A stretch of DNA of 64,000 nucleotides from Bacteriovoracaceae bacterium (GTDB lineage Bacteria > Bdellovibrionota > Bacteriovoracia > Bacteriovoracales > Bacteriovoracaceae), in NCBI GenBank assembly GCA_947377285.1, contig CANCFT010000003.1:124001-188000 (forward strand), written 5' to 3'. The notes under the pieces were generated by a model. It did not search any database, was not told the DNA's origin, and saw only the letters and a program-made list of their open reading frames with translations. The translations under genes and the position numbers were made by a program. Positions 19,389 through 37,200 of this stretch are shown here, one piece after another (position 1 is the stretch's first letter; the number at the start of each line of letters is the position of its first letter).

Positions 19389-19814
19389 ATGTCGACATTT
19401 AATCTAGACGTCTACATGCCCGTCGTAATTTTAATTGCGCTCGCGTTGTTGGTGGCAGGTGGATCACTTCTATTGGGAGGATTGATTCGTCCTCATAACC
19501 CAAATAAACTCAAAGAAACTGCGTATGAATGTGGTGAGGAACCAGTTGGTTCAGCTTGGGCAAATTTCAACGTTAGATTTTATGTTATCGCGCTAATTTT
19601 TATCATTTTCGATGTTGAAAGTGCCCTTATGTTTCCAGTGGCAGCAGTATTCAAAAAATTTAATCAAATTGGCCTTGGCGGAACTCTTCTTCTTTCAGTG
19701 TTTAGCTTTGTTTTAATACTAGTATCAGGTTTAATTTACTGCTGGAAAAAGGGCGACCTGGATTGGGTTAAAAGTTTTAATTCTCAGCCACAGCTTGCGA
19801 CAAAGGATAAGTAA
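19389..19814 (+). CDS. nuoA: NADH-quinone oxidoreductase subunit A, copy 1
   Basis: Three-helix subunit at the junction of the membrane and peripheral arms of complex I. The conserved loop is present (TAYECGEEP) together with FNVRFYVIALIFIIFDVESA and its acidic FDVE motif. At 141 aa it is longer than the second copy (119 aa at 27146) because of extended ends. GGAGATCAAG precedes the ATG. It begins a seven-gene set in the order A, H, J, K, L, M, N; nuoB, C and D, which usually follow nuoA, are absent. Confidence 0.93.
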   Translation: MSTFNLDVYMPVVILIALALLVAGGSLLLGGLIRPHNPNKLKETAYECGEEPVGSAWANFNVRFYVIALIFIIFDVESALMFPVAAVFKKFNQIGLGGTLLLSVFSFVLILVSGLIYCWKKGDLDWVKSFNSQPQLATKDK

Positions 19815-21010
19815 TGAACTCAACCGTAGTCACCTACCTTTCACAATCTAAAGAACTAACTTTGGCCACAGAGTGGTTAACAAAAGCTTTAGGATTTAAT
19901 GCCTCTTCACTTGTTGCATTTATTGTTTTTGCAGTTGTTTGCCTAATCGTTGTTGGTGTTATGTCTACAATCGGTGGATTAGGAACATATGCAGAAAGAA
20001 AAATTTCTGCTGATTTGCAAATGCGTGTTGGGCCAAACAGAGTTGGTCCATACGGAATCCTTCAGTTCTTAGCTGACGGTGTAAAGATGATTTTAAAGGA
20101 AGATATTATTCCTTCTGGAGCAGATAGATTTACATTTATCCTAGCACCATTTTTATGTTTGATTGGGGTTTTTGCCACTCTAGCCGTTGTTCCCTTTTCA
20201 AGTGGATTTATGCTAGCAGATTTAAATGTTGGAATTTTTTATTTATTAGGAATGGCATCATTGGTTGGTGTTGGAGTGTTTCTTGGTGGATATGCTTCAA
20301 ATTCAAAATGGTCAATGCTTGGTGGTATGAGAGGAGCCTCTCAAATAATTTCTTATGAAATTCCAGCAACAATTACAATTATTTCAATTGTTTTGTTGGC
20401 CGGTGGATTATCAATGGGAACATTGATTGGTGGGCAAGGTGGGATGCCTCAACAATGGTACCTATTTCATAATCCATTTTCATTTATTGGATTTTTTATT
20501 TTCTTTATCGCTTCATTGGCCGAAACCAATAGAGCTCCTTTTGATTTACCAGAAGCTGAGTCTGAACTAGTTTCAGGTTACCACACAGAATATTCTGGAA
20601 TGCGATTCGGATTATTTGCTCTTGCAGAATATATCGAAGTCTTTGTTGTTTGTGGTGTTGCCACAGCACTATTTCTCGGCGGATATAAAGTTCCTTTTGA
20701 TTTAGGTACAGGATCTATTCTAGTTGAGAAATTAGGCATGGACGAAATGCTTGCTAAAAACTTAGGTCAAATCTTAGAAATTGGTTCGTTTTTCACAAAA
20801 ACACTTGGACTTTATTACGTTGTTATTTGGGTTCGTTGGACACTGCCAAGATTAAGAGTAGATCAACTAATGACTCTTTGTTGGAAATATCTAACACCGA
20901 TTGCGATATTTAACCTTCTAGGTTGCGCTGTCTGGATGTATGCATTTGATGGAAAATCTATTTATTCACTTCTTTTTGAGTCAGTTGCTTCAGTAGCAGG
21001 ACATCATTAA
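19814..21010 (+). CDS. nuoH: NADH-quinone oxidoreductase subunit H, copy 1
   Basis: Subunit lining the quinone-access channel of complex I. Family motifs: ERKISADLQMRVGPNRVGPY in the first cytoplasmic loop, then SLAETNRAPFDLPEAESELV and GYHTEYSGMRFGLF, with the acidic E-channel residues. The C-terminal VRWTLPRLRVDQLM is typical. It has 398 aa (second copy 348), the extra length lying in the N-terminal segment and an internal loop. The ATG overlaps the nuoA stop by one base. Confidence 0.95.
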   Translation: MNSTVVTYLSQSKELTLATEWLTKALGFNASSLVAFIVFAVVCLIVVGVMSTIGGLGTYAERKISADLQMRVGPNRVGPYGILQFLADGVKMILKEDIIPSGADRFTFILAPFLCLIGVFATLAVVPFSSGFMLADLNVGIFYLLGMASLVGVGVFLGGYASNSKWSMLGGMRGASQIISYEIPATITIISIVLLAGGLSMGTLIGGQGGMPQQWYLFHNPFSFIGFFIFFIASLAETNRAPFDLPEAESELVSGYHTEYSGMRFGLFALAEYIEVFVVCGVATALFLGGYKVPFDLGTGSILVEKLGMDEMLAKNLGQILEIGSFFTKTLGLYYVVIWVRWTLPRLRVDQLMTLCWKYLTPIAIFNLLGCAVWMYAFDGKSIYSLLFESVASVAGHH

Positions 21011-21037
21011 AAAGTTGAAAATTTAAAGGGAGTTTAC

Positions 21038-21574
21038 GTGTTTACGAATACACTATTTTTATTATCTGCTGCTCTTACTATTGGTGGAGCTTTTGCCGTT
21101 GTATACAGTGAAAATTTAATGCATGCATGCATCTTTTTGCTAGCATCTTTTTTTGGTGTAGCAGGACTATATGCTTGTATCGGAGCCGACTTTTTAGCGG
21201 CTACTCAATTAGTTGTGTACGCTGGCGGTGTTGTTATTTTAATGTTGTTCGCCATTATGCTTACAGGTGGAACTGCAAATAATTTTAATCGTTTCGGACT
21301 AGAAAAAATTGCAGCAATGGGAAATAAAAAAACCTATTTTATGGCGGGAATTACTGCAGTGGTTTCATCTTTAGTATTGTTAAAAATTATTGCTAATGTT
21401 TTAAGAAACCAATCATCGGCTGCACTTGAAGCAAATCTGCCAACAGTTGAACGAATAGGCACAGTTTTAGCTACTGATCATATTTTAGCTTTTGAGATTT
21501 CCTCAGTTTTACTTCTTGGCGCATTGATTGGTGCTGCAGTTATTTCGAGACCAAGGACAGAAAAAAATGATTAA
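21038..21574 (+). CDS. nuoJ: NADH-quinone oxidoreductase subunit J, copy 1
   Basis: Membrane subunit of complex I, 178 aa with five predicted helices. The conserved stretch AATQLVVYAGGVVILMLFAIML contains the pi-bulge helix typical of NuoJ. The start is GTG with AAAGGGAG upstream. nuoI, normally between nuoH and nuoJ, is missing. The next gene begins eight bases before this stop codon. Confidence 0.94.
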   Translation: MFTNTLFLLSAALTIGGAFAVVYSENLMHACIFLLASFFGVAGLYACIGADFLAATQLVVYAGGVVILMLFAIMLTGGTANNFNRFGLEKIAAMGNKKTYFMAGITAVVSSLVLLKIIANVLRNQSSAALEANLPTVERIGTVLATDHILAFEISSVLLLGALIGAAVISRPRTEKND

Positions 21575-21872
21575 TTTAGGAACCTACTTAGGAATATCTT
21601 TCGCTCTTTTTATTTGCGGAATTTTAGTAATGGTTGCAAGAAAAAATATAATAGCGATACTTTTGGGTATTGAGCTTATATTAAATGCATCTGCCCTAAA
21701 CTTTGCTGCTTACACTAAATTTTCAAATAATAATATCGATGGCCATATCATGAGTTTATTTATCATCGTTACAGCAGCAGCTGAAGCAGCTGTAGGATTA
21801 GGGATTGTCATACGATTTTTCCAATTGAGAGAAAGTATTCATATAGATGATGCGGCTTCATTGCAAAACTAA
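21567..21872 (+). CDS. nuoK: NADH-quinone oxidoreductase subunit K, copy 1
   Basis: Three-helix proton-path subunit (MrpC homologue), 101 aa. The glutamates of helices two and three are in LLGIELILNASALNF and AAAEAAVGLGIVIRFF. I place the start at the ATG at 21567, which has AAGGA 9-10 bases upstream and gives the normal ~100-aa length; a TTG at 21528 would add 13 residues from the nuoJ overlap. Confidence 0.95.
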   Translation: MINLGTYLGISFALFICGILVMVARKNIIAILLGIELILNASALNFAAYTKFSNNNIDGHIMSLFIIVTAAAEAAVGLGIVIRFFQLRESIHIDDAASLQN

Positions 21873-21896
21873 AGAACTAGTAAGGATATAGTAATT

Positions 21897-24065
21897 ATGG
21901 ATTATACATTTTGGACGATTGCCCCCATTGTACTGCTGCCATTTTTTGCATTTGTCATTAATGCATTTATTGTTAAGAAGTTTACCAAATTAGCAGTTGG
22001 AATAAGCACAGGTGCAATTTTTGTATCATTTTTATATGCATTGAGAATTTTTCTAGATTTTATGAATGTTTATTCTGTTGGTTACCATATTCATAAAGTT
22101 TTTTCTTGGTTTAACCTAAGTTCTGGAACTCAGCTTTTTGAAGTTAAAATGGGTATCTACATAGATAACATGACTTCAGTTATGCTTTTAATGGTAACTG
22201 GAGCGGCTACTATCATCCATGTCTTTTCGACTTGGTATATGCATGATGATCCAAGATTCGGAAGATTTTTCGTATACATGTCACTCTTTACTTCGGCCAT
22301 GTTAGGTTTAGTACTTTCAGACAACCTACTTTCAGTTTTTATTTTCTGGGAATTAATGGGCTTTTGCTCATATTCATTAATTGGCTTTTATTATGAAAAA
22401 GAAGGTGCAGGAAATGCATCGATGAAAGCATTTATGACAACAAGAGTGGGAGATGTTTTTTTCTTACTTGGGATTTTGGCGATTTGGGCAGTTGTTGGAA
22501 ATGTTTCATTCGTAGATATTTACAACGCTATCGCTTCAGGAAAATTTAATAATCTTTCAATCACAGTTTTTTCAATGGGAATTCCGGTTGCAACATTGGC
22601 AGCTTTTTCAATTTTCATGGGAACAATGGGAAAATCAGCACAAGTTCCCTTACAAGTTTGGTTACCAGATGCGATGTGGGGACCAACACCATGTTCAGCA
22701 CTTATTCACGCAGCAACTATGGTTGCAGCAGGTGTTTATCTTTCTTTAAGAATGTATCCATTAATGGAACTTGGTCATCTCACAACATTTATCGCGTATG
22801 TTGGTGCTATCACTGCTTTCGGAGCAGCAACAATTGCACTAATTCAAACAGATATTAAAGCTGTTCTCGCCTATTCTACAATTTCTCAATTGGGGTATAT
22901 GGTTATTGGAATTGGTGTTGGATCTTATAACGCTTCTTTTATGCATTTAATTACACATGCGGTTTTTAAAGCCTGTTTATTCTTATCTGCTGGATCTGTT
23001 ATCCACTCTATTCACTGCCAAGAAATGCCACAAATGGGTGGGCTTCGTAAAAAACTTCCATACACATTTTTTGCTATGCTGCTTTGCTGTTTTGCGATTG
23101 CAGGAGTTCCATTCTTTTCAGGATTTGTCTCTAAAGATAGAATTCTAGGAGATGCGCTCGTGTTGGCAGTTGGAAATCCTGTTTATATTCCAGTCGCAAT
23201 CTTAGGATTTGGCGGAGCTCTGTTAACAGCTTTTTACATGTTCAGAATGTTGTTTTTAACTTTCTTTGGTGAACCTCGCGATCACCATATTTATGATCAT
23301 GCACATGAAGAACACTTGGGATGGAATTCTAATATTCCACTCTTAATTTTATCAGTCTTTACTTTAGGTTTATTTTATTCAGGATCATTTACCGGCCAAG
23401 GCGAAGTAAATCTTTTTGGATCTAAAAATGAATGGTTTTCAACTTTAATTCACAAACCAGATGCAGCTAGCCTTCATCATTTTGCAGAATATAAATCTGA
23501 AGATCTTGGTGTTGTTGATACAAGAGATAAATTAGAACTGCCGAAAGCAGAATTTGATGAAAACCATGGAATGAATGAAGAAGAAGCTCATCATGTTCAT
23601 CAAATTCACCATTTTGGTGCATTAATGTCAGTCTTTATTGCATTTGCAGGAATTTTCTTGGCTTACTCAATGTATATTAAGAAAACAATTAATCCAGACT
23701 GGTGGGCTCAATCGTTTGCTGGTTGGAGAAGAGCTCTTCAAGGTAAATATTATTTCGATGATCTGTATATTGGAAAAATTATTCAAAAAGGATTAATCCC
23801 ATTTAATAATTTTCTAGCATGGTTTGATATGGGGATATACGACAAGTACGGAATTGACGGTTGGGAAGCAGTCAATAGATTTGCATTCAATGTCTCGCGT
23901 TGGTTTGATAATACAATTATTGATAGCGCAATGGTTGATGGAACGGGCTGGAGTGTTCGAGCAATGAATACCGTATTGAGATGGGTCCAATCTGGAAAAA
24001 TCCAGTTGTATTTTATGGTATTAGTTTTTGTTCTTGCAGGGTATGTTTGGAAATTAAATTTTTAA
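21897..24065 (+). CDS. nuoL: NADH-quinone oxidoreductase subunit L, copy 1
   Basis: Distal antiporter-like (MrpA-type) pump subunit with the long lateral helix, 722 aa. Key residues: the glutamate in FWELMGFCSYSLIGF, the lysine in MGKSAQVPLQVWLPDAM, and the downstream HAATMVAAGVYL. The usual small or acidic residue after PDAM is tryptophan here (PDAMWGPTP). A histidine- and acid-rich insert of about 100 residues (about 460-580, with HIYDHAHEEH and EEAHHVHQIHH) precedes the final helices. It is 66 residues longer than copy 2. Confidence 0.95.
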   Translation: MDYTFWTIAPIVLLPFFAFVINAFIVKKFTKLAVGISTGAIFVSFLYALRIFLDFMNVYSVGYHIHKVFSWFNLSSGTQLFEVKMGIYIDNMTSVMLLMVTGAATIIHVFSTWYMHDDPRFGRFFVYMSLFTSAMLGLVLSDNLLSVFIFWELMGFCSYSLIGFYYEKEGAGNASMKAFMTTRVGDVFFLLGILAIWAVVGNVSFVDIYNAIASGKFNNLSITVFSMGIPVATLAAFSIFMGTMGKSAQVPLQVWLPDAMWGPTPCSALIHAATMVAAGVYLSLRMYPLMELGHLTTFIAYVGAITAFGAATIALIQTDIKAVLAYSTISQLGYMVIGIGVGSYNASFMHLITHAVFKACLFLSAGSVIHSIHCQEMPQMGGLRKKLPYTFFAMLLCCFAIAGVPFFSGFVSKDRILGDALVLAVGNPVYIPVAILGFGGALLTAFYMFRMLFLTFFGEPRDHHIYDHAHEEHLGWNSNIPLLILSVFTLGLFYSGSFTGQGEVNLFGSKNEWFSTLIHKPDAASLHHFAEYKSEDLGVVDTRDKLELPKAEFDENHGMNEEEAHHVHQIHHFGALMSVFIAFAGIFLAYSMYIKKTINPDWWAQSFAGWRRALQGKYYFDDLYIGKIIQKGLIPFNNFLAWFDMGIYDKYGIDGWEAVNRFAFNVSRWFDNTIIDSAMVDGTGWSVRAMNTVLRWVQSGKIQLYFMVLVFVLAGYVWKLNF

Positions 24066-24111
24066 CTATGAGTTTTATACTAAAGAGTAACTTTTTAGAA
24101 GGAGTTAACCG

Positions 24112-25644
24112 GTGCACGGTTTAGATTTATTAAGCTGGATTTTGTGGATGCCTATTATCGGAGTAATTGGAGTGTTGTTAATTCCTAAAGAACAAACAAC
24201 ATCAATGAAGTGGTGGGCCCTTATTAACACCGTTATTACGTTTGTTCTTACAATAGTGCTCTATTCTAAGTTTGATCAATCAGTTGCAGGTATGCAGCCC
24301 GGATTAAGTGTAAATATTCCGTGGATACCACAATTTCATATTAATTATGCACTAGGGGTTGATGGTATTTCATTACCAATGATTCTTTTGACTTCATTGC
24401 TGTTTATGCTTTGTATCTTAAGTTCATGGACTCAAATTAAGAAATCAATTAAAGCTTATTTTGCTTTATTACTTCTTTTACAAAGTACGGTCTTCGGCGT
24501 CTTTATGGCGATGGACTTCTTTTTGTTTTATGTTTATTGGGAAGTTATGCTTCTTCCAATGTTTTTCCTTATTGGTGTTTGGGGTGGAGAAAACCGCGAA
24601 TACGCCGCAGTTAAATTCTTCCTTTATACCTTCTTTGGATCTTTGTTAATGTTAGTCGGTATCGTGGCACTTTACTTTGCAACGGGACAATCAGAAACTT
24701 CATTTAGTATTTTAGCACTTCAGGGTGGTCACTTTACAGATTTAACATTGAAATTATTTGGAGCAAGTGTTTCATTTAGTAAGCTATTCTTCATTTTCAT
24801 GTTTATTGGTTTTGCCATCAAGGTACCAGTATTTCCATTCCACACTTGGCTTCCACATGCTCACGTTCAAGCTCCAACAGCAATATCAGTAATCCTTGCT
24901 GGTGTTTTATTGAAAATGGGAACATACGGATTTTTAAGAATTGCATTTCCTATTTTTCCTGATTCTGCAAAATATTTTGCAGAAGCAATTGCATGGCTTG
25001 GTTTAATAAATGTCATTTACGGCGCTCTATGTGCCATGGCTCAAACTGACGTCAAAAAACTAATCGCCTATTCATCAGTCTCACACATGGGATTTGTAAT
25101 GTTAGGTCTAGCATCAATGACTGTTCAAGGTATGAATGGTGCGGTTCTACAAATGTTCAATCATGGAACATCGACAGCGATGATGTTCTTTATGATCGGT
25201 ATAATTTATGAACGATCACACCATAGATATATTGTTAGACCAGATGGATCACGTGGGTTTGGAGGTCTGTATACTCAACTTCCTGTGTATTCAATAATTT
25301 TTATCATTGGTATGTTTGCTTCAATGGGATTACCTGGAATGTCTGGATTTATTTCAGAAGCTTTAATTTTTCTAGGTATGTATGAAAAATACACAACAAT
25401 TACTGTCTTAGCATTGTTTGGTTTATTGATTGGTGCAGCTTATTTACTTTGGATGTTCAAGAGAATGTTCTTTGGAGAAGTTAATCCAGAAGTAAAAGAA
25501 TATACTGATATGACAAAATTAGAAGTTGGATACATGATTCCGCTTTGTATTGCAGTTATAGTTTTTGGTATTTTTCCATCACCAATCTTAAATATGATGA
25601 AGGCTTCAGTTGGCCAATTGGTTTCATTACTAGCAACTTTCTAG
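24112..25644 (+). CDS. nuoM: NADH-quinone oxidoreductase subunit M, copy 1
   Basis: Antiporter-like (MrpD-type) pump subunit, 510 aa, about 14 helices. The key glutamate lies in YVYWEVMLLPMFFLIG and the central lysine in FAIKVPVFPFHTWLP. The next stretch reads HAHVQAPTAISVI, whereas DAHVEAPTAGSVI is the common form, so it is changed at three sites including an acidic residue. The start is GTG with AAGGAG upstream. Confidence 0.95.
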   Translation: MHGLDLLSWILWMPIIGVIGVLLIPKEQTTSMKWWALINTVITFVLTIVLYSKFDQSVAGMQPGLSVNIPWIPQFHINYALGVDGISLPMILLTSLLFMLCILSSWTQIKKSIKAYFALLLLLQSTVFGVFMAMDFFLFYVYWEVMLLPMFFLIGVWGGENREYAAVKFFLYTFFGSLLMLVGIVALYFATGQSETSFSILALQGGHFTDLTLKLFGASVSFSKLFFIFMFIGFAIKVPVFPFHTWLPHAHVQAPTAISVILAGVLLKMGTYGFLRIAFPIFPDSAKYFAEAIAWLGLINVIYGALCAMAQTDVKKLIAYSSVSHMGFVMLGLASMTVQGMNGAVLQMFNHGTSTAMMFFMIGIIYERSHHRYIVRPDGSRGFGGLYTQLPVYSIIFIIGMFASMGLPGMSGFISEALIFLGMYEKYTTITVLALFGLLIGAAYLLWMFKRMFFGEVNPEVKEYTDMTKLEVGYMIPLCIAVIVFGIFPSPILNMMKASVGQLVSLLATF

Positions 25645-25653
25645 GGAATTGAG

Positions 25654-27120
25654 ATGTATTTAAATTATTTAGCAAGCATTAGTCGATACATACCAGAACT
25701 GCTTTTAGTTATGCTGATGGTGGGTTTAATTTTAATTGAAACCACATACGCAAATGACGATAAAAATAAGAGATATATTTTTATTACTGCAATTTCGGGT
25801 CTAGTCGTAACGTTTATCAGTTTACTTTTAAATTTAGATGGAAAATCAGAAACCATTTTTAATAACTCGATGGTAATTGATTCGTTTAGTACTACTATGA
25901 AAATGATAATGGTTTTAGGAACATTAGGAGCTTATTACTTAAGTACAATTTCTAAAGAAATTTATGAATCACTAAAAACTGAATTTATCATAATGGCCAT
26001 TGGGATCCTTATTGGCGGGATGATTTTAGCTTCAGCTAACAATATGCTGATGATGTATATTGGAATTGAAACGCTTTCCATAATTTCATATGTAATGGCA
26101 GCATTAAAGAAAAACGATGAGAGATCATCTGAAGCAGGTTTAAAATATGCTCTTTATGGTGGAATATCTTCAGGGATAATGCTTTTTGGTATGAGCCATA
26201 TTTTTGGTGTCATTGGGACAATTCAATTTACAGGTATGGCCGCCAATATTGCCAAGCTTGATCACACTCAAATTCTAATAATGATGCCTTCGTTTGTCTT
26301 ATTTTTCGCAGGTATTGGATATAAAATTGCAGCAGTTCCATTTCATATGTGGTCACCAGATGTTTATGAAGGATCTCCAACTCCTGTAACAACATTTTTT
26401 GCAATTGTCCCTAAGCTTGCAGGAATTTCAGCACTTGTTAGAGTCACAATGATTTTCTTTTCAACCGCATCTCCTCTCAGTGTAATGTGGGTTGGTTTAA
26501 TGATGGTTATAGCGGCCCTTACTATGACAGTTGGAAATGTGTCTGCAATTGGACAAAAATCTGTAAAAAGAATGCTTGCATACTCATCTATTTCACATGC
26601 TGGAATTATGATTGCTGGTCTTGTGGTACTTAATAAAATTGGAATTCAAGCAATCGTCTTTTACTCGATGATTTATTTATTTATGACATTGGTTGCTTTT
26701 TACATCACCAATATAGTTCAAGATAAATATGGAAATGATCACTTTGAAAGATTTCAAGGTTTGGCATATAGATATCCATATATGGCCATTATGATGTCCA
26801 TTGTAATGTTTTCATTAACAGGTCTGCCACCATTGGCAGGATTTGTTGCAAAATGGAATATAATCAACTCGCTCTTAAGTTCAAAGTTTTACACATTGGC
26901 CATCGTTCTAGTTTTAAATTCAGTTGTATCAGCTTATTACTATTTAAAAATAGTTAGATTAATGACTTTAAAACAACCAGAATCAACTGAAGAAATTGAA
27001 GGTTTTGGATTTTTAAATCAATTCATCATTGTTGCCATGACGGCACCTGTAATTATTCTTGGTATCTTTTGGGACAGCGTTATGAATATTGCCTATAATG
27101 CAAAACTTTTTATCCCGTAG
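25654..27120 (+). CDS. nuoN: NADH-quinone oxidoreductase subunit N, copy 1
   Basis: Third antiporter-like pump subunit, 488 aa. Motifs: IGIETLSIISYVMAALKK (E and lysine pair), IGYKIAAVPFHMWSPDVYEG (central lysine) and VKRMLAYSSISHAGIM. TGLPPLAGFVAKW near residue 390 is family-typical. It closes the first nuo set; the second begins 25 bases downstream with no terminator visible, so both sets are probably one transcript. Confidence 0.95.
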   Translation: MYLNYLASISRYIPELLLVMLMVGLILIETTYANDDKNKRYIFITAISGLVVTFISLLLNLDGKSETIFNNSMVIDSFSTTMKMIMVLGTLGAYYLSTISKEIYESLKTEFIIMAIGILIGGMILASANNMLMMYIGIETLSIISYVMAALKKNDERSSEAGLKYALYGGISSGIMLFGMSHIFGVIGTIQFTGMAANIAKLDHTQILIMMPSFVLFFAGIGYKIAAVPFHMWSPDVYEGSPTPVTTFFAIVPKLAGISALVRVTMIFFSTASPLSVMWVGLMMVIAALTMTVGNVSAIGQKSVKRMLAYSSISHAGIMIAGLVVLNKIGIQAIVFYSMIYLFMTLVAFYITNIVQDKYGNDHFERFQGLAYRYPYMAIMMSIVMFSLTGLPPLAGFVAKWNIINSLLSSKFYTLAIVLVLNSVVSAYYYLKIVRLMTLKQPESTEEIEGFGFLNQFIIVAMTAPVIILGIFWDSVMNIAYNAKLFIP

Positions 27121-27145
27121 ATCTTATTAACTGAGCGAGGAATTA

Positions 27146-27505
27146 ATGGAATTTGCTTCCTTTGTAGTTTTTGTCATTATCGCCTGTACATTAAGTGCCG
27201 TTCTTTTAGGCATTTCATCTCTATTGGGTCAAAAAAGAAAAATCATTAGAGAAAATGATATCTATGAATCTGGAGTAAATGCTGTTGGAAGTGCAAGCAG
27301 ACAATATGATATAAAATTTTACTTAACTGCCATTTTATTTCTACTATTCGATGTTGAAATTGTTTTTCTATTGCCGTGGGTACTTGCTTATAAAGATTCG
27401 CCAAATCATGATTTTATGCTCGGTGGGTTTATATTTTTTATGGCCATAATGTTGGTTGGATATATTTTTATCATCAACTCAAAAGCTCTAAAGTGGGAAG
27501 AATAA
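27146..27505 (+). CDS. nuoA: NADH-quinone oxidoreductase subunit A, copy 2
   Basis: Second NuoA, 119 aa (normal length), three helices. The conserved loop is diverged (NDIYESGVNAVGSA in place of the cysteine-containing YECGEEP of copy 1), while QYDIKFYLTAILFLLFDVEIV keeps the acidic FDVE motif. Loss of the loop cysteine sets this copy apart. A GCGAGGAATTA element precedes the ATG. It starts a second A-H-J-K-L-M-N set. Confidence 0.92.
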   Translation: MEFASFVVFVIIACTLSAVLLGISSLLGQKRKIIRENDIYESGVNAVGSASRQYDIKFYLTAILFLLFDVEIVFLLPWVLAYKDSPNHDFMLGGFIFFMAIMLVGYIFIINSKALKWEE

Positions 27506-27506
27506 T

Positions 27507-28553
27507 ATGTTTGAAATGATGATAGAAATATTAATTAAAACTGTTGTTATTCTAGGCTTACCACTTGGTGCACTTCCCTTAATAATTCATGTTGAAAGAA
27601 GAGGCGCCGCTTTTATGCAAAAGCGACTTGGTCCAAACCGAGTTGGTCCATTTGGATTGTTCCAACCTCTTGCAGATGTTGCTAAGTTTATGTTCAAAGA
27701 AGAAGTACATCCTGCACATGTCAGACCATTTTTCTATACTGCTGCACCAATGATTGCATTAATTGTTGCCATTTTACCACTAGCCTGTATTCCAGTTGCT
27801 GCACCATTTGAAGCATTTGGCAGAACTATTTTTCCAGAAGTTTTTAGAAGTGACATGGGAATCTTTTTTGCTTTCGCAGCCTCTGCTCTCGGATCATATG
27901 GAATCTTACTTGCGGGATGGGGTTCAAATAATAAATATTCAATGTTAGGAGCACTTAGAGCATGTGCTCAAATGGTTTCCTATGAACTTTCACTTTCAAC
28001 CTCTGTTGTGGCCATGATTTTTGTTTTTAGTACAAATGATATTCACGTAATGGTGGCAGCTCAGCAAGGTTACTGGTTCAACTTTATCCCGAAATGGGGA
28101 TTTTTCATGCAGCCTGTTGCGGCCATGTTATTTCTTGTAGGAATTTTTGCTGAATCAAATAGGCTTCCTTTTGACTTGGCCGAAGGAGAATCGGAAATTG
28201 TTGCTGGTTACCACTTAGAATATTCTTCAATGAAATTTGCTCTCTTTTTTATGGCCGAATATATTCACATGATTGCTCTCTCTACTTTATTTATCATCAT
28301 GTTTTTTGGCGGATATAATTTATTGCCTGGATTAGAACTCATTGCAGATAAAATTCCACTTCCAATTGCACTTTTTCAAGTAGCTTCACTCGTTGTAAAA
28401 ATTGCACTTATGGTGTGGTTCTTCGTTTGGGTTCGCTGGACACTTCCACGTTTTAGATATGATAAATTAATGGATCTTGGTTGGGAGAGGTTACTTCCAA
28501 TTGGGATAGCCAATTTAATAGTGACTGTTCTTTTTGTCTATTTTAGGAATTAA
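27507..28553 (+). CDS. nuoH: NADH-quinone oxidoreductase subunit H, copy 2
   Basis: Second NuoH, 348 aa. It keeps MQKRLGPNRVGPFGLFQPLA, GIFAESNRLPFDLAEGESEI and YHLEYSSMKFALF, and the C-terminal VRWTLPRFRYDKLM. Similarity to copy 1 is confined to the motifs, which points to old paralogues. It starts one base after the nuoA stop. Confidence 0.95.
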   Translation: MFEMMIEILIKTVVILGLPLGALPLIIHVERRGAAFMQKRLGPNRVGPFGLFQPLADVAKFMFKEEVHPAHVRPFFYTAAPMIALIVAILPLACIPVAAPFEAFGRTIFPEVFRSDMGIFFAFAASALGSYGILLAGWGSNNKYSMLGALRACAQMVSYELSLSTSVVAMIFVFSTNDIHVMVAAQQGYWFNFIPKWGFFMQPVAAMLFLVGIFAESNRLPFDLAEGESEIVAGYHLEYSSMKFALFFMAEYIHMIALSTLFIIMFFGGYNLLPGLELIADKIPLPIALFQVASLVVKIALMVWFFVWVRWTLPRFRYDKLMDLGWERLLPIGIANLIVTVLFVYFRN

Positions 28554-28557
28554 TATT

Positions 28558-29091
28558 ATGGCAATCGATATTTTTTTAACAATCATTACGGTCATTTTTG
28601 CATTGATGCTGGTCTTTTCTAAAAGGACTGTCGTTTCTGCTTTTGCACTATTGATGACACTTCTAACTTTAGCGTTAATCTATTTCCAATTGGGATCAAT
28701 TTTTCTTTCAGCAGTTCAAGTTTTAATTAATGCTGGTGCCATCGCCATTTTATTTGTTTTCGTCATGATGCTAATAAATTTAGAGCAATTTCAAAACAAT
28801 CGAGAAAAAAGCAAAATCAAACTCGTCATTTCCACTTTCACGATGCTTGTTGTTTTGGGAGTATTGGCCTTAGTTATCAATAATAATATTGAAACATTGT
28901 CAGTTAATAACCTAACAGACAATTCAATGAATGCTTTATTCAGTAAACTATTTAGTACTTATTTTTTACCATTTGAAATGGCAACAGTGCTCTTACTTGC
29001 AGCTATTGTTGCTTGCATCGTTATCACGACTCATGAAAAGCAACTAGTTGAAGAAGAGACAGAGTTGCATAAAATGGAGCCAAAGCTATGA
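28558..29091 (+). CDS. nuoJ: NADH-quinone oxidoreductase subunit J, copy 2
   Basis: Second NuoJ, 177 aa, five helices. The core AVQVLINAGAIAILFVFVMMLI matches the NuoJ pi-bulge helix. I use the ATG at 28558, nine bases after AGGA; an in-frame TTG at 28534 overlaps nuoH and has no supporting ribosome-binding site. nuoK overlaps its stop by four bases (ATGA). Confidence 0.94.
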   Translation: MAIDIFLTIITVIFALMLVFSKRTVVSAFALLMTLLTLALIYFQLGSIFLSAVQVLINAGAIAILFVFVMMLINLEQFQNNREKSKIKLVISTFTMLVVLGVLALVINNNIETLSVNNLTDNSMNALFSKLFSTYFLPFEMATVLLLAAIVACIVITTHEKQLVEEETELHKMEPKL

Positions 29092-29381
29092 GCATTTATT
29101 ATTACTTAGCTGCTTTTCTATTTTGTCTTGGATTGCTAGGAACCATATTTAAAAAAGACCTAATCTCGATACTTCTATGCCTGGAACTAATGATGTCAGG
29201 GGTTGCTTTACTCTTTATTTTGTTTTCTAAATCTACAGGATTTCTGGGAGCACAATTAATGGTAATATTCACAATGATCATTTCAGCATGTGAAGTTGCC
29301 ATTGGTTTAAGTCTAATCATTGCTCTTTATCGCAAAAAACAAACAATCTATACTGATGACATTAAAATTATAACGGAATAA
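29088..29381 (+). CDS. nuoK: NADH-quinone oxidoreductase subunit K, copy 2
   Basis: Second NuoK, 97 aa, three helices, with the glutamates in LLCLELMMSGVALLF and ISACEVAIGLSLIIALY. It is coupled to nuoJ by an ATGA overlap. A typical AGA-rich leader precedes the next gene seven bases downstream. Confidence 0.94.
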   Translation: MSIYYYLAAFLFCLGLLGTIFKKDLISILLCLELMMSGVALLFILFSKSTGFLGAQLMVIFTMIISACEVAIGLSLIIALYRKKQTIYTDDIKIITE

Positions 29382-29388
29382 GAGAATT

Positions 29389-31359
29389 ATGTACGAGAAC
29401 TATTTAGCACTCATTCCCTTTTTTCCTCTTCTTGCTTTTTTGCTTAACTCACTTTTAATAAAAAATAAGTTAAACAATATTCAAGCTGGGGTAATTACAT
29501 TTATTGGATTATTCACTTCGTTTATCTTAGTGATTGTAGTCGCATTGCACGTCAATGAAGCAGGTCCAGTTCATGTAAAGCTATGGGACTGGATGACTTA
29601 TAATAAAATTATTTTTGATATCCACTTTGTGATGGATCAACTTTCAGTCGTTCTATGTCTAATGGTTACTGGGATCGGAAGTGCAATTGCGTTCTTTTCA
29701 ATTGGTTATATGGACCATGAAGAAAAAGTTGGAAAGTTTTTTGCCTTTTTTGCTCTCTTTGCTTTTTCAATGCTTCTACTTGTTGTGGGTGAAAACTTTC
29801 TAGTTTTATTTATGGGATGGGAAGGAGTTGGATTAAGTTCATATTTATTAATTGGATTTTGGTATGAACATACTAAAAACGGAAATGCTGCTAAAAAAGC
29901 TTTTCTTGCCAATAGAGTTGGAGATTTTGGTGTAGTCTTGGGAATGATTGGATACGCACTAGTTTTTAACACAGTTTCATTTAGAGATCTTCAGCATCCA
30001 GACATGGCCATTTTAATGGCCAATAAAGGAGTACTCATTGTTTCTAGCTTGCTCCTCGTTTTAGGGGTCACTGGAAAATCTGCTCAAATTCCACTTTTTA
30101 TTTGGCTTCCTGACGCAATGATGGGACCAACTCCAGTCTCGGCATTAATGCATGCTGCGACAATGGTTACAGCAGGAATATTTTTACTATGTAGAGTTTC
30201 AAATATCATAGTTCATTTTTCAGTTGTCATGGACGTTATAGCTTGGGCCGGAGCTTTGACATCATTGCTAGCAGCTCTAATTGCTCTTACACAAACTGAT
30301 ATTAAAAAAATATTAGCTTATTCTACAGTGTCTCAATTAGGCTACATGGTAATGGCGTGTGGACTAGGAGCTTTTTCTACAGGAATGTTTCACGTTTTTA
30401 CACATGCATTTTTTAAAGCACTTCTCTTTTTATGTGCAGCCTCAGTTATTTACGGATGTCATCACGAACAAAATATTTTTAAAATGGGTGGCTTAAAAGA
30501 TAAAATGCCAATTACATTTTGGACATTTGTTGTTGGGTTTTTAGCGATAGCAGGAATTCCAGGATTTTCAGGATTCTTTTCAAAAGATGAAATATTATCA
30601 ATGGCATTCACTAATCCAGGCAATGGACCATTGCTCTATTCAATTGCATTGGGGAGTGCGCTCCTTACAGCATTTTATATGACAAGAATGTTGGTACTTG
30701 TGTTTATTGTTCCTCAATCAAAAGATGTTCATGACACTCATGAACATGGAACTTCTGAAGACAAACACCATCACCATGAAATTCATGAATCCCCAAGTGT
30801 AATGACGATACCTTTAATTATTTTAGCAATATGTAGTTTTGGAGCAGGATATATAGGTATGCCTCACCTTTTTGGTGGTCATGAATACTCTAGACTTATC
30901 CAAGTATTTCTAGAAAAAATAGTTGCTGCACCAACAGGACACACTCATCTTTCTGAAGAAACAGAAATTATAATGATGATTGTAACGACATTGCTAATCT
31001 TGTCTTCAATGGGACTCGCCTATTATATTTATGTCAAAAATGACGACATTAAGATGCGAGATAAATTAAAAGCAAAATTCCTAGCTCTTTGGGTGCTAAG
31101 TTCAAATAAATTTAAAGTCGATGAGCTTTATGAAACTGTTATTATAAAACCACTTTATGAAGTAGGAAATTTCTTAGTCGATATAATTGAAACTTATGTT
31201 GTTAACGGGGTTGTAAGACTTGTTACTAAAACAATAAGTACTGGTGGAACTTTTCTAGAAGAAACGAAACCAGAACGAATTGAAATGGGAATTCTTTATA
31301 TTATTATCGGACTCACAATTATAGTAACCGCTGTATTTAATGCATTTATTTTCAGATAG
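29389..31359 (+). CDS. nuoL: NADH-quinone oxidoreductase subunit L, copy 2
   Basis: Second NuoL, 656 aa. Key motifs: MGWEGVGLSSYLLIGFWYEH (glutamate), GKSAQIPLFIWLPDAMMGPTP (lysine; methionine after PDAM), ALMHAATMVTAGIFLL, and QTDIKKILAYSTVSQLGYM. A short histidine-rich loop (about residues 445-465, DKHHHHEIHE) is smaller than the one in copy 1. Its C-terminal lateral-helix region ends in a final membrane helix. Confidence 0.95.
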   Translation: MYENYLALIPFFPLLAFLLNSLLIKNKLNNIQAGVITFIGLFTSFILVIVVALHVNEAGPVHVKLWDWMTYNKIIFDIHFVMDQLSVVLCLMVTGIGSAIAFFSIGYMDHEEKVGKFFAFFALFAFSMLLLVVGENFLVLFMGWEGVGLSSYLLIGFWYEHTKNGNAAKKAFLANRVGDFGVVLGMIGYALVFNTVSFRDLQHPDMAILMANKGVLIVSSLLLVLGVTGKSAQIPLFIWLPDAMMGPTPVSALMHAATMVTAGIFLLCRVSNIIVHFSVVMDVIAWAGALTSLLAALIALTQTDIKKILAYSTVSQLGYMVMACGLGAFSTGMFHVFTHAFFKALLFLCAASVIYGCHHEQNIFKMGGLKDKMPITFWTFVVGFLAIAGIPGFSGFFSKDEILSMAFTNPGNGPLLYSIALGSALLTAFYMTRMLVLVFIVPQSKDVHDTHEHGTSEDKHHHHEIHESPSVMTIPLIILAICSFGAGYIGMPHLFGGHEYSRLIQVFLEKIVAAPTGHTHLSEETEIIMMIVTTLLILSSMGLAYYIYVKNDDIKMRDKLKAKFLALWVLSSNKFKVDELYETVIIKPLYEVGNFLVDIIETYVVNGVVRLVTKTISTGGTFLEETKPERIEMGILYIIIGLTIIVTAVFNAFIFR

Positions 31360-31379
31360 AAAAAAACGAGATTTATATC

Positions 31380-32864
31380 ATGGACCAATTATTTATTATT
31401 AAGTTTTTAATTCCACTATTTTGGGCAATAGGCTTCATGCTTGCACCAAAACAAAATGAGCGGGCAATTAAACTATATGCCCTAATCGGGTCCCTAGTTA
31501 TATTGGCTTATTCAGTTAAAATGTTTTTTGATTTGCCAAATCCAGGTGTACTAACAGAGCTTTTCAAATTTCAAATGCCACTCTTTTTCAATATGACATA
31601 CACATTTGCAATGGATGGCTTAAGTGGTTTATTGCTATTGTTAAATTCATTTCTATTAGTCATCGTAGTCATCACCACTTGGGAAATTAAAACTGATAAA
31701 TTGCGACTGTATTATTTTTTAATTTTTACACTTGTGTGGGCCGTAAACGGATCTTTACTTTCAACTTCACTCTATGGATTTTATATATTTTGGGAAGCTA
31801 TGCTAATCCCACTATTTATTTTAGTTGGAGTGTTTGGCGGAGATAATCGACGTTATGCCAGCTTTAAGTTTTTCATGATGACAGCGGCAGGTTCAATTCT
31901 CATGCTTGCATCAATGTGTTATATGAGTGCATTAGCTTATAAACTTACTGGTTCTTATGATTTAAATTACGAAGTAATCAAATCACTAAATTTAAGATTT
32001 TCTGGTTTTTGGTCACCTCAGTCACTAATCTTTTGGTGCTTTTCAATTGCCTTTTTCCTAAAGGTGCCAGTGTTTCCATTTCATTCATGGCTTCCAGATG
32101 CGCACGTTGAAGCTCCAACTGCAGGTTCAATCCTTCTTGCTGGAATTCTTTTAAAACTTGGTATCTATGGATTTTTAAGATTTGTTATTCCATTTTATCC
32201 GCAAGCAGTGGATGCCTATAGAGATATAGTTCTCTACTTAGGTGCAATTGGTGTAATTTATGGAGCGTTAACGGCCTGGGTTCAAAAAGATATAAAAAAG
32301 CTGGTCGCCTTTTCATCAATTTCACATATGGGCTATATTGTTATGGGAGTTTTCTCTCAAAATGCATTTGCCGTTAAAGGTGCAATTTTTCAAATGGTTG
32401 CTCATGGAATTTCAACACCAGGACTCTTCATCGGAGTTCACTATCTTTACACAAGAAGACATACAAAAAAATTAGATCAATTTGGTGGACTCGCAAAGGT
32501 TATGCCTCGTTTTGCCATTTTGTTTTTTATAATAACAGCTGGCTCAATGGCCGTTCCCATGACTTGTGGATTTGTTGGAGAATTCATGATCACCGCTGGT
32601 GTTTATGAAATTAATAAAACAGTCGCATTTTTAGCAGCAACTGGGATAATTTTATCACCAATTTACCTATTGAAAATGTATCACTTAACCGCTCTCGGTG
32701 AGATTAATCACGAAGAAAATAAATCACTTAAAGATTTATCACTTTTAGAGGCGACACCTATGATTGTGTTGTCTGTATTAACTATTCTACTTGGGCTTTA
32801 CCCAAAATTAATCACATCAATGTATGAAGGCACAATAAGTTTTTTTGTGAATAAAGGTTTATAA
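31380..32864 (+). CDS. nuoM: NADH-quinone oxidoreductase subunit M, copy 2
   Basis: Second NuoM, 494 aa. It carries the canonical FYIFWEAMLIPLFILVGVFG, FFLKVPVFPFHSWLPDAHVE and APTAGSILLAGILLKLG, so it is closer to textbook NuoM than copy 1 at the DAHVEAPTAG site. VKKLVAFSSISHMGY-type lysine helix is present (KKLVAFSSISHMGYIV). Confidence 0.95.
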   Translation: MDQLFIIKFLIPLFWAIGFMLAPKQNERAIKLYALIGSLVILAYSVKMFFDLPNPGVLTELFKFQMPLFFNMTYTFAMDGLSGLLLLLNSFLLVIVVITTWEIKTDKLRLYYFLIFTLVWAVNGSLLSTSLYGFYIFWEAMLIPLFILVGVFGGDNRRYASFKFFMMTAAGSILMLASMCYMSALAYKLTGSYDLNYEVIKSLNLRFSGFWSPQSLIFWCFSIAFFLKVPVFPFHSWLPDAHVEAPTAGSILLAGILLKLGIYGFLRFVIPFYPQAVDAYRDIVLYLGAIGVIYGALTAWVQKDIKKLVAFSSISHMGYIVMGVFSQNAFAVKGAIFQMVAHGISTPGLFIGVHYLYTRRHTKKLDQFGGLAKVMPRFAILFFIITAGSMAVPMTCGFVGEFMITAGVYEINKTVAFLAATGIILSPIYLLKMYHLTALGEINHEENKSLKDLSLLEATPMIVLSVLTILLGLYPKLITSMYEGTISFFVNKGL

Positions 32865-32867
32865 AAA

Positions 32868-34250
32868 ATGGAAAATTTAACTTTCGTACAAAACATTTTA
32901 ATTTTTATAGGCCTAAATGCAATCGCCTTACTTTCTCTCAATGTTAAGAAATATGGAAAATATATTTCATTCGGATTAAGTTTAACTGCTGCAGTTGTGT
33001 TTTTTGCAATGTTATACATGAGAGACAGTTTCAGTTTAGGCGAATTGTTTACTCTGGATGGAAATAAAATATTTTTATTAAAATTAGTCTCTATTCTCAA
33101 TGTTCTCATGATCCTTATAAATGGTTATACATCCTTGGAAAAAGTTAAAAGCACCCTTCTTGTAAGTTATATGTTTCTTGGAGGTGTTTTTTTATTAGGG
33201 TCAAATGACCTCATAACGTTTTACGTCTCATTGGAAACAATTGCACTTGTTGGATATACACTCGTTGCGACCTCTAGTTTAGAGTTTTCACGAGAAGCAG
33301 CGGTTAAGTATCTTGTTCAAGGATCTGTAGTATCGGCAATATTTCTTCTTGGTGTAGCTTTTTACTTAGGTGCAACTGGAGGATTAACTCTCGTTGGTGC
33401 CAACGTCAACAATCAGGAGCTTTATGCAGTAGCTCTTGGAATATTTATTTTAACGGCTTGTTTTAAGCTCGGGGCTTTTCCCTTTCATGCTTGGATTGCA
33501 GATGTTTATTCTAACGTTTCAGATGGAAATTTAGCGACGAATTTTTTTATTTCAAAAATTATTATTGGTTATAAATTCATTACTTTAATTCAAGTTTTAT
33601 TACAGGCATGTGACCCTCATTTTTCAGATGTTTTAATTAGAATTATTCAAGTTATAGCCGTAATGTCTGCGTTTTACGGAAATATTATTGCTGTAGTACA
33701 AGGGCAGTTTAAGCGAATTATTGCTTATTCATCTGTCGCCCATACAGGGTATATGTTGATGACCATGTGTTTGAATCCAGATGAAATGTATGAGAAGCAA
33801 CTCATTAGTTATTTAGTCTTGTATTCGTTAACAGCAACTGGAGTAATCATGATTCTCAATCAGTTTGCTCAATTAAACAAAAACAAAGATGGTAAAGAAA
33901 TTCTTGTTTCTGGGTTTTATCGCAACAAAGGTTTAGCTATCTTGCTCGTTGTTTGTGTCTTGAGCTTAGGTGGTATACCGCTTACTTCAGGTTTTGCCAT
34001 GAAGTACATGCTTTTTACCAATTATTTTAAAGAAGGCTTTACGATTGAGGCCATATCAATTTTCATTAGTTCAATCATAGGACTTTCTTACTATATTCGA
34101 TTTGTAAGTGATCTTTTCACAGAAAACGAAGAGAAGATGAAACTTCCCATTATTAAAACTCGTTTTAGTGAATCGCTAGTTCATGTTATCATTTTATTGT
34201 CTATCTTCACTTTTGGTATCGCACCATCGCTCTTTTTAGGGTTGAAGTAG
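32868..34250 (+). CDS. nuoN: NADH-quinone oxidoreductase subunit N, copy 2
   Basis: Second NuoN, 460 aa, the most diverged of the set. It keeps FYVSLETIALVGYTLVA (glutamate), CFKLGAFPFHAWIADVYSNV (central lysine), QFKRIIAYSSVAHTGYM and LGGIPLTSGFAMKY. It ends the double nuo cluster; the next gene follows after ten bases with AAGGATGA, so it is probably cotranscribed. Confidence 0.92.
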   Translation: MENLTFVQNILIFIGLNAIALLSLNVKKYGKYISFGLSLTAAVVFFAMLYMRDSFSLGELFTLDGNKIFLLKLVSILNVLMILINGYTSLEKVKSTLLVSYMFLGGVFLLGSNDLITFYVSLETIALVGYTLVATSSLEFSREAAVKYLVQGSVVSAIFLLGVAFYLGATGGLTLVGANVNNQELYAVALGIFILTACFKLGAFPFHAWIADVYSNVSDGNLATNFFISKIIIGYKFITLIQVLLQACDPHFSDVLIRIIQVIAVMSAFYGNIIAVVQGQFKRIIAYSSVAHTGYMLMTMCLNPDEMYEKQLISYLVLYSLTATGVIMILNQFAQLNKNKDGKEILVSGFYRNKGLAILLVVCVLSLGGIPLTSGFAMKYMLFTNYFKEGFTIEAISIFISSIIGLSYYIRFVSDLFTENEEKMKLPIIKTRFSESLVHVIILLSIFTFGIAPSLFLGLK

Positions 34251-34260
34251 ATAAGGATGA

Positions 34261-37200
34261 ATGAGCGTAAAGTACAGGATTCGGCTTCAGAGCAATAGAG
34301 TTATAGGACCTTTTGGCGCCGAAGAAATTGGCGAGCTCTATTCTAAAAAACATATAAATGGAGACGAAGTCTGTCAGCAATTTCCAATTGGAGACTGGAG
34401 GAATTTTTCTAGTTTTCCCGAATTAGTACAATATATATCTTTAGTTAATAAAACATCTTCATATATAAAACCTTCTCCCGCACATCAAGAAATAAAATCT
34501 GAAAAAACAGCCACAACTGCGTCTATACCTGTAAAAAATAAGGCTGAAGTTAAAAATCAAACTTCTGATAAAACATCATCCGTTAAAATGTTTTCAGAAT
34601 TTAAATTCGATAAGAATAAAAATCTTGATGAAAATATAAATTATGCAGAGATTGAAAAGAAATACAATTCAAATCGACCAGGTGATCGGCCAGAAAGTGA
34701 AGAAGTAAAAGAAGAAGCACATGATTTTGAAAAAACTAGAGTTGTTCGCCGTTCACCAATTTTAAGCTTGACTGATGAAATGGAAAAAACAGTCGTAATG
34801 CCATTAAAGGCAGCAAGATTAATTAAAAGTGATACTGGAACACATACAAATACTGCAGAAGAAAAAAAACAGAAAGATGAATCAAGTGAAATTAAAAACA
34901 ATCTTCCAACACGTGAGGATTTAATAAATGAGCAAACAGAGTTTTTCAATCTTGCCCATTTGCTACCGACTATTAATGCTCAATTAAGTGTCGCTGAAGT
35001 TGAATTAGATCAAAAAGCAAAAATCGAAGAAAACAATGAGATAATTCGATTAAAAGAAATTCAAAGAAATAATCAAGAAGATGAAGATTACGATGGAGAT
35101 CAAGGCGATGCAGTCCCTGATTTAGAAAAAAATAATAAACCGAAGAAAAAACGAAAAAAAGGAATGTCAATAATTGTAGCCCTTGCATTTTTAGCTATAT
35201 TTTATGTAATGCTGACACCCGACGAAAAACCTAAAGTCAGCGGACCGCAATTTGTAGAGTTTAAATTTCCATTAACACAAGAGTTTGAAGATAGTAAGGG
35301 AGCCGCAAAGGATTTAATTACAGGTAGAAATTATTATTCTCAAAATACATACTTAGCAAAAGCCGTAGCTTCTAAAATGTTTGTTTCTTCACTTCAAAAA
35401 CAATTTAATACCAACGAGGCAATTGGTGATTTAATACTGACCTATTCAGAACTATTAGACGATACACGAGATTCAAAAATATCAGCGAATACAATTTATA
35501 AATTAATTCAATTGTCAGACAATAAAACACTTACAGATTTAAACGTGGTAACTGGGGAGGCACTATTCTTTGGCAAAATTGGAAAATATCAAGCAGGTAT
35601 TAATTTAATAAGAAATTATTTCAAAGCAAAAGGACCTGCATCTGGAAAGCTTTTAGCTAATTACTTAGATCTTTTGATTAGCTCTGGAGATTTGGTTGAA
35701 GCACGTAAAACTTTTATTAAATTAAATGATTTACCAAAAAAGACAATTGAGATTTACTATTCACTTGCAAATTTTAGTGATGTTGATGACCAGCCTGCTC
35801 AGGCTAGAAAAATAATCAAGGAAGGAATTACACAAAGCCCAAAAAGTGCATTGCTGCTATTAAAATATGCTGATTATTTATTCAAAGACCAACAGAAAAA
35901 TGAATATGAGTCAGTCTTAAAAAAAGTAAATGCTATAAACTCAGAAGGCTCTCCTAGTTTAACTGCAAAGTTTTATTATCACTTGGGTCTTTTAAATGCC
36001 TTAAAGAATAAAAACAAAGTTGCAGCTTCATTTTTTAAAAAGTCTTTGGAAATAAAAGAGTCAGATGAGCTAAGGGTAATGCTAGCAAACTTAGAAATTG
36101 CAGGGGATAACTTCTCCAAAACACTCATTTTGGAAAGTAAGGTAATAAATCTAATAAAAAGAGCAAAGACAGAGTTAAAAAATAAAAATTTAGAATCGGC
36201 ATTTTCTTTTTCAATTGAGGCACTCGATTCTTATCCAGCTTATATCCCAGCAATTCTTCTACATACTGATTTGCAAATAAAAAGAGGACTGTTCGATTCT
36301 GCTATTAACACACTTCAAAATGCCATAAACACGAATCCAAATAATAATTTGTTAAAAAACAATCTTACTCAAGCATATATAAAGGCATATAAATTTGAAG
36401 ATGCTCAAAAATTACTACTGGAGTTTTCTCAAACCAAATATTCATTTGGAAGTGAGTATGCTTCACTGATGGGAGATTTTTATTTAGCAAAAAACAATAT
36501 TCAACTTGCGCTAAGATGGTACCTAGAGGCGTTGAACAGAGATCCGCTAAGCGATCATGATATGTTTCAAGTTTCAAAAATATTTCTACGTTCTAAAAAA
36601 TTCAATGAAGCTAAATCAAGACTTGCAAAAGCATTATTGCTAGACCCAAAAAATCCTGATTACTTAGTTATGAATTCAGAAATATTATACGAACAAGACA
36701 ATGCAGATACAGCACTTGGTTATTTAAGAGATGCAATTTCAGAAATCGGAGAAGATCCTAAACTGCTGTCGGCCATTGCCATAATATATTATAAAAGTGG
36801 GCAGATAAAAGATTTTACGAATTACTACAAGCGAATCCTGGCCTTGCCTAAAAAAGATGAGACGTTTTTTGAGTTCCTCATTTATGCCGCGAAACTCGAA
36901 GAGAAGAATGATGATTATATAAATTATAGCCGAGAGATTTTAAAATTAAATCCAGGAAACTTAAAAGTACATTTAGAGCTCGGAGAATTTTTATATAATT
37001 TAAAAAGATACCCAGAAGCCATCGTTGAATTTGATGAAGTTAGGACAAGGTTGGTATCTTATCCAAAAGTTCATTTCATGTTGGCAAAGCTTTACCTAGC
37101 AACACAAGATATTAAAAAAGCAAAAGTTATGGCCTTAAAAGAGCTAGAACTTAATCCAAGCATAGATTCTGCTTATTATATTGTTGGAGAAGTTGCGAGA

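Follow-up and report, generated by a model that had tools for sequence, protein, structure and literature searches.

The question raised by this locus is what serves two complex I membrane arms that stand next to each other with no gene for a peripheral arm among them. The window, that is, the whole stretch of 64,000 nucleotides analysed here, comes from a Bacteriovoracaceae bacterium, a relative of predatory bacteria (assembly GCA_947377285.1, contig CANCFT010000003.1, positions 124,001 to 188,000 of the forward strand), and between its positions 19389 and 34250 the + strand carries two complex I membrane sets, each in the order A H J K L M N. Arm 1 occupies 19389-27120 and arm 2 occupies 27146-34250, with a spacer of 25 bases; genes for NuoB, C, D, E, F, G and I are absent among both, and the gap between H and J lacks NuoI in each. 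We put the probability at roughly 85% that the arms belong to two split complexes, arm 1 with a peripheral set P2 and arm 2 with a peripheral set P1, which derive from former tandem operons. The genome would then encode two separate complex I enzymes, each divided between two loci. Complex 1 (arm 1 and P2, on contig C5) would be an 11-subunit quinone-reducing proton pump without an NADH module, presumably supplied with electrons by a soluble carrier, for instance ferredoxin, and complex 2 (arm 2 and P1, on contig C39) would be a 13-gene NADH:quinone oxidoreductase with a fused NuoCD.

For all 14 arm genes the best NCBIfam match is the expected Nuo family, with scores below the curated cut-off for several (e.g. 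A1, A2, J1, J2 and N2); as regards a group 4 [NiFe] hydrogenase or an Mrp antiporter as the alternative, the best matches in both NCBIfam and Pfam are Nuo models. Over the parts aligned by BLAST, the arms are only 26-40% identical (A 30, H 34, J 29, K 33, L 40, M 36 and N 26%), so they are not a recent duplication. The tandem layout is not an assembly error either, because it is also present in G002, of the same genus (locus L009), and in the Bacteriovorax sp. contig L105, whose NuoM1 is an 89% match to window NuoM1 among the matches listed. NuoH has 398 amino acids in arm 1 versus 348 in arm 2, and the NuoA loop reads YECG in arm 1 and YESG in arm 2. NuoA of Escherichia coli carries an ESG-type loop, so the loop without cysteine is not odd. 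An earlier note on this DNA had described the two full sets 25 bases apart on one strand, the missing NuoI between H and J, the differences in NuoH and NuoA, and the lack of a recent tandem duplication; on all these counts it is borne out, the first by coordinates and NCBIfam and the last by the low identity of the copies.

The window's genome (3.45 Mb, 68 contigs, 92.75% complete) contains, by genome search, two NuoD loci, one NuoF and two NuoH, both of the latter inside the window. The two peripheral sets were read on loci L004 and L005. Set P1, on contig C39, comprises NuoB, a fused NuoCD, E, F, G and I; set P2, on contig C5, comprises NuoB, C, D and I, without E, F and G. In P1, E, F, G and I have Pfam support, NuoCD was identified by the NuoD genome search, and NuoB by its 53% identity to P2 NuoB; in P2, Pfam supports all four genes. 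The sole NuoF sits in P1, where Pfam matches above cut-off cover NuoF with its iron-sulfur (Fe-S) domain and the cluster domains of NuoE and NuoG. Arm 2 and P1 together supply all of NuoA-N, with C and D fused, and arm 1 and P2 amount to eleven genes with no NADH module (N-module). The earlier claim that no peripheral-arm gene is present thus holds for the locus and fails for the genome, and two peripheral sets elsewhere, which the same source had named as the finding that would remove the novelty of the layout, are largely what the genome contains, save that P2 lacks the three N-module genes. Its proposal of a single peripheral arm, encoded elsewhere and serving both membrane arms, fits the absence of peripheral genes at the window locus; it does not survive the presence of two NuoD loci, each with its own NuoB, NuoC and NuoI, forming Q-module sets with separate affinities, and we regard it as barely tenable.

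Co-occurrence across genomes indicates the partner of arm 1. NuoH and NuoD were searched in 57 genomes and their co-occurrence was counted by hand over 35 genomes of the family (G000-G034), with the gene type taken from fetched loci or else judged by match pattern and frame length: P2-type NuoD is present in 27 of the 28 genomes with type-1 NuoH and in none of the seven without it (Fisher p 1.2e-6). Contigs from outside the family account for 63 of the 80 best NuoM1 matches listed; chosen by similarity to arm 1, they therefore test its partner and not its frequency. Among these listed matches, NuoD lies upstream in 38 of 63 contigs and is P2-like in 37 of the 38, no E, F or G gene is found upstream of M in 36 of the 38 (the exceptions being L172 and L179), and 26 contigs have best matches to A1, B2, D2, H1, I2, J1 and L1 together; contigs of other phyla carry 11-gene operons with P2-like B, C, D and I. 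As for arm 2, in full operons of G016, G017, G031, G048 and G055 arm-2-like H and L stand together with P1-like B, D, F and G, and in sister genera arm 2 and P1 decay together and arm 1 and P2 stay intact; these two lines of evidence suggest that arm 2 pairs with P1. The swapped arrangement, arm 1 with P1 and arm 2 with P2, has nothing in its favour but the missing linkage, and it runs against the co-occurrence of arm 1 with P2, the 11-gene operons in other phyla and the joint decay of arm 2 and P1, so that we give it almost no credence.

The catalytic residues were mapped onto E. coli reference sequences from NC_000913, at positions that we take, from the complex I literature, to be functional sites (pump, quinone, N2). 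Nearly all of them are kept in both window arms; NuoM E108 and NuoJ E55 differ in both. On a list of 33 pump positions, which omits these two as well as NuoJ Y59, NuoK R25, NuoH G134 and NuoN E154 and K158, arm 1 keeps 33 of 33 in all 12 genomes read, and arm 2 keeps 32 in G000, G002 and G100 and 29 in G095, in which a contig break takes out three positions. The quinone residues (HHY) are present in both NuoD and the N2 cysteines (CCCC) in both NuoB (for P1, in G000 and G002), and HHY is complete in 19 of 19 P2-type NuoD. Taken by itself, the window presents two complex I enzymes that look ordinary but are laid out in an unusual, split way.

Several observations weigh against the two-complex reading. 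What is shown is the gene content, the loci, the conservation of catalytic residues and the co-occurrence; the physical pairing of arms and sets, the electron donor and the order of events are what we infer. Three of the 14 genomes of the window's genus (G003, G009 and G010) have arm 2, and neither a P1 NuoCD nor NuoF was found in them, likely owing to assembly gaps in these drafts (89, 91 and 84% complete); G013 (84% complete) has arm 1 without a P2 NuoD. Arm-2-type A, J, K, M and N of distant genomes give mixed type 1 and type 2 best matches. In arm 2 only, NuoJ Y59 is replaced by N and NuoK R25 by K, and K247 of NuoN2 is K in one alignment and I in another. Finally, no electron-donor gene was recognised beside P2 in the locus read.

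The distribution of NuoF across the family bears on whether complex 1 has an NADH module. NuoF matches were obtained in 61 of 129 family genomes, and none in 36 of the 73 high-quality ones (at least 90% complete and at most 5% contaminated, in rounded values); in the window's genus, NuoF is found in 11 of 14 genomes. Crossing the tables by hand, we found 32 high-quality family genomes, G009 included, in which NuoM1 scores above 900 bits and NuoF gave no match, and arm 1 with P2 therefore very likely works without an NADH module. These genomes also bear on the idea that the lone NuoEFG of P1 docks on P2 too, so that arm 1 would oxidise NADH as well. This idea is in line with the single NuoF of the window's genome and with the canonical appearance of the remaining parts of complex 1; it is unlikely in view of the 32 genomes and of the nearest listed operons of other phyla, 36 of 38 of which lack E, F and G upstream of M. 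The suggestion in the earlier note that one arm docks another electron-input module stands in part, insofar as arm 1 pairs with a B-C-D-I set devoid of NuoEFG, only one NuoF exists in the genome, and NuoF is missing from many arm-1-bearing relatives. The window's genome encodes a SucA-type 2-oxoglutarate dehydrogenase, and a search of it for the POR_N domain gave nothing over the cut-off and one weak match, to a thiamine pyrophosphate (TPP) enzyme resembling indolepyruvate:ferredoxin oxidoreductase (IorA-like, a name of our own reading). It is possible that this enzyme supplies reduced ferredoxin, and a ferredoxin route to complex 1 is a guess. By eye, the IorA-like gene (L245, G000:C21, near 39263) adjoins an open reading frame (ORF) resembling 4-hydroxyphenylpyruvate dioxygenase.

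The likeliest origin of the window layout is a pair of full operons, in tandem, which lost their peripheral genes, because Marinimicrobia contigs hold both operon types in this order. L156 and L160 carry the 11-gene type (in L156 the view does not reach the A gene) and, after it, a set with B, separate C and D, E, F, G and H; a second set likewise begins in L147 and L149. In the window's own phylum, G036, G040, G045, G052 and G054 have both arms on a single contig and likewise ordered, and three of them (G040, G052 and G054) retain C, E and F between A2 and H2. The ancestor would have had two complete operons in tandem, the 11-gene type and then the 14-gene type, and the peripheral genes would have left stepwise, with the membrane halves remaining adjacent. 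In G045, an 860-amino-acid frame on the other strand (L034 5473-8055) separates the two arms.

The fate of the second complex in relatives is a stranger result than the window layout. We use primed names (A'-N', B', CD', I') for the decayed arm-2 and P1 forms of sister genera. Of the genomes read, 30 retain seven open frames that have the expected order and roughly the expected size. Four of these arms are full length but eroded (G032, G034, G089, with L108 taken as its locus, and G106, with 20, 14, 10 and 13 of the 33 positions kept); in the remaining 26 most frames are shorter, and a few subunits at best can be weakly recognised. In G034, arm 2 adjoins mfd and arm 1 is absent. Sequence comparison of A', J', K', L', M' and N' with the canonical subunits gave next to no match. 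H' is recognisable in some forms (5.7e-16 in G023, 2.9e-7 in L109; 97% for the profile of genus g47), the profile of genus g3 recognised not even H', and M' and N' give weak matches in a few less shrunken forms (G094, G060). In the intermediate forms L108, G032 and G034, each subunit is most similar to its own canonical counterpart, and G106 is likewise intermediate; for the other shrunken subunits, position, size, order and these intermediates point to their probable identity. A profile across nine genomes of several genera failed, as it mixed unalignable sequences, and an AlphaFold model of L' from L109, built on a two-row alignment, had a mean predicted local distance difference test score (pLDDT) of 37.6 and was not used.

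Arm 2 is still further reduced elsewhere. Five-frame remnants in L114 (12203-14550) and G017 (L013 1384-3743) look like a late stage of loss, and in a Bacteriovorax stolpii metagenome-assembled genome (L113) and in G014, G016 and G019 the TPR gene that otherwise follows arm 2 comes directly after NuoN1. B', CD' and I' are kept in G061, G115 and G133 with no arm 2 at its usual place, the place that was searched; conversely, G026 (66% complete) has the seven frames and no NuoCD match of P1 type, and G025 has one of 39.8 bits only. The local absence of arm 2 in the former three and of a NuoCD match in G026 tells against the remnants forming a fixed whole complex.

On the peripheral side, we read 45 family NuoCD genes, one per genome (in G060 the full-operon gene, in G150 the second-best match), leaving out G014 and G027, whose best CD matches score 84 and 58 bits; the residue table omits the outgroups G038 and G040 and lists G095 without NuoB, at a contig end. 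Six of the 45 (those of G000, G002, G095, G100, G060 and G076) retain the second quinone histidine, which aligns with E. coli H224; the other 39 have lost it, and all eight outgroup genes of the phylum keep it. G076 is an exception in that it keeps the quinone residues though only B, CD and I stand together. Of 44 NuoB, 17 have lost one or more N2 cysteines, and electron transfer within the arm may persist in the other 27, intact forms included. The surroundings of P1 are kept in G015, G018, G020, G028 and G033 (by eye), with a lipoprotein-like gene upstream and Aat-like and arginase-like genes downstream, one gene intervening among the latter in G015. Degenerate E, F and G remain between CD' and I' in G018 (L056 8481-13420), the sole locus read that combines them with a lost quinone histidine. 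At the NuoI position, ORFs in L068 (9938-10246) and L065 (9744-10055) have lost most 4Fe-4S cysteines and show zinc-ribbon-like CxxC pairs by eye, and in three of six species of genus g47 (L200, L201 and L203) the ORF at the I' position is about twice the usual length (297, 297 and 328 amino acids).

A tree of NuoN1, which has many open forks and in which G017, in fact the bearer of a five-ORF remnant, was labelled as lacking arm 2, interleaves intact and decayed forms at its best topology. The intact state needs three changes on that topology; the well-supported branches force only one, so that repeated decay of the arm 2/P1 complex is suggested and no more.

That these genes are kept despite the loss of quinone residues hints at a new job for the second complex. 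Since synonymous sites are near saturation within genera, we compared the proportions of nonsynonymous (pN) and synonymous (pS) differences and used no dN/dS ratio. Among the four closest pairs, A', H', J', K', B' and CD' have pN values of 0.10-0.24 and I' has values of 0.25-0.36, at a pS of 0.53-0.86 across all seven; L', M' and N' have a pN of 0.28-0.47, versus 0.51-0.57 for mismatched subunits, and arm-1 NuoN1, as a comparison, 0.05-0.07. A', H', J', K', B' and CD' are clearly under constraint, and L', M' and N' weakly so. In more distant within-genus pairs several membrane genes are at the control level. Lengths are nearly constant in two genera (five and six species), M' and N' of g47 varying most.

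We hold it at nearly an even chance that in most other genera of the family sampled arm 2 and P1 form a complex-I-derived membrane assembly kept by selection in a non-redox role, without quinone reduction by the known mechanism, and, as part of the same reading and with the same reserve, that some such assemblies also lost the terminal Fe-S cluster and recognisable pump residues; perhaps the shift occurred repeatedly. The working form is retained in the window's genus, G095 and G100. Plain decay under relaxed selection, with no new function, has somewhat less than an even chance. It would account for the graded disappearance of E, F and G, of the quinone residues and of Fe-S ligands, for the shrinking membrane genes that end in five-ORF remnants or clean absence, and for the state of G025 and G026; it also accords with the interleaving in the best topology for NuoN1 (of which the well-supported branches require little), with identities of 32-57% for L', M' and N' in the four closest pairs, modestly above the 23-29% of the mismatched control, and with the control-level membrane genes of the more distant pairs. 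It sits poorly with seven membrane frames that are all open in 30 genomes, with near-constant lengths within two genera, with a pN far under the saturated pS for A', H', J', K', B' and CD' in close pairs, and with the retention of CD' both without arm 1 (G034, G063, G065) and without arm 2 in its place (G061, G115, G133).

In the window itself, NCBIfam supports every arm gene, with further support from genome search for the two nuoH genes and from the residue check for nuoJ2 and all nuoL, nuoM and nuoN genes. On the + strand, arm 1 consists of nuoA1 (19389..19814), nuoH1 (19814..21010), nuoJ1 (21038..21574), nuoK1 (21528..21872), nuoL1 (21897..24065), nuoM1 (24112..25644) and nuoN1 (25654..27120). 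The listed start of nuoK1 overlaps nuoJ1, and the true start is likely later, to judge from close relatives with 101 amino acids. Arm 2 consists of nuoA2 (27146..27505), nuoH2 (27507..28553), nuoJ2 (28534..29091), nuoK2 (29088..29381), nuoL2 (29389..31359), nuoM2 (31380..32864) and nuoN2 (32868..34250). Ten bases past nuoN2 begins a gene for a TPR-repeat protein (34261..37515, + strand), a homologue of which lies 3' of the arm or arms in many family loci, including those without arm 2; by eye, its N-terminal part looks similar to a GYF/DUF4339-type domain, which is absent from the Pfam result. The divergent neighbour on the other side is mfd (15787..19287, - strand); most of the family loci read have mfd beside the complex I arms, and so do some from other families of the phylum. 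Across the locus, promoter-like sites show no excess (66, versus 72.9 expected from shuffles), and terminator-like sites are somewhat more numerous than in shuffles (19 versus 11.0).

The locus offers a clear case of two complex I enzymes with membrane and peripheral genes sorted into separate loci. The version free of the NADH module also occurs in relatives without detected NuoF, which raises the question of its electron source there. The sister genera provide a graded series from a working enzyme to an almost unrecognisable remnant, which could show which parts of complex I remain needed after quinone electron transfer is lost; if the non-redox reading is true, a direct comparison is possible with the working form in the window's genus, G095 and G100.

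A literature search by title, of partial coverage, found no paper on complex I in this bacterial group, and the closest comparisons are with systems described elsewhere. The 14-subunit complex I of E. coli type, with its fused NuoCD, resembles arm 2 plus P1 in having B, CD, E, F, G, I, A, H and J-N and in the retention of most pump residues and of the quinone and N2 residues. Unlike the E. coli type, arm 2 and P1 have their membrane and peripheral genes in two loci on different contigs, and NuoG has 492 amino acids in P1 versus 908 in E. coli. The Desulfitobacterium complex (PMC11238625) has the same eleven genes as arm 1 and P2 and, like them, no N-module; arm 1 and P2 differ from it in being divided over two loci in this family. 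Rhodobacter sphaeroides has two complex I isozymes, both described as NADH-linked (PMC4859585). It too harbours two phylogenetically distinct complexes in one genome; in the genome studied here, by contrast, one of the two is without an NADH module, and the membrane arms of both stand next to each other.

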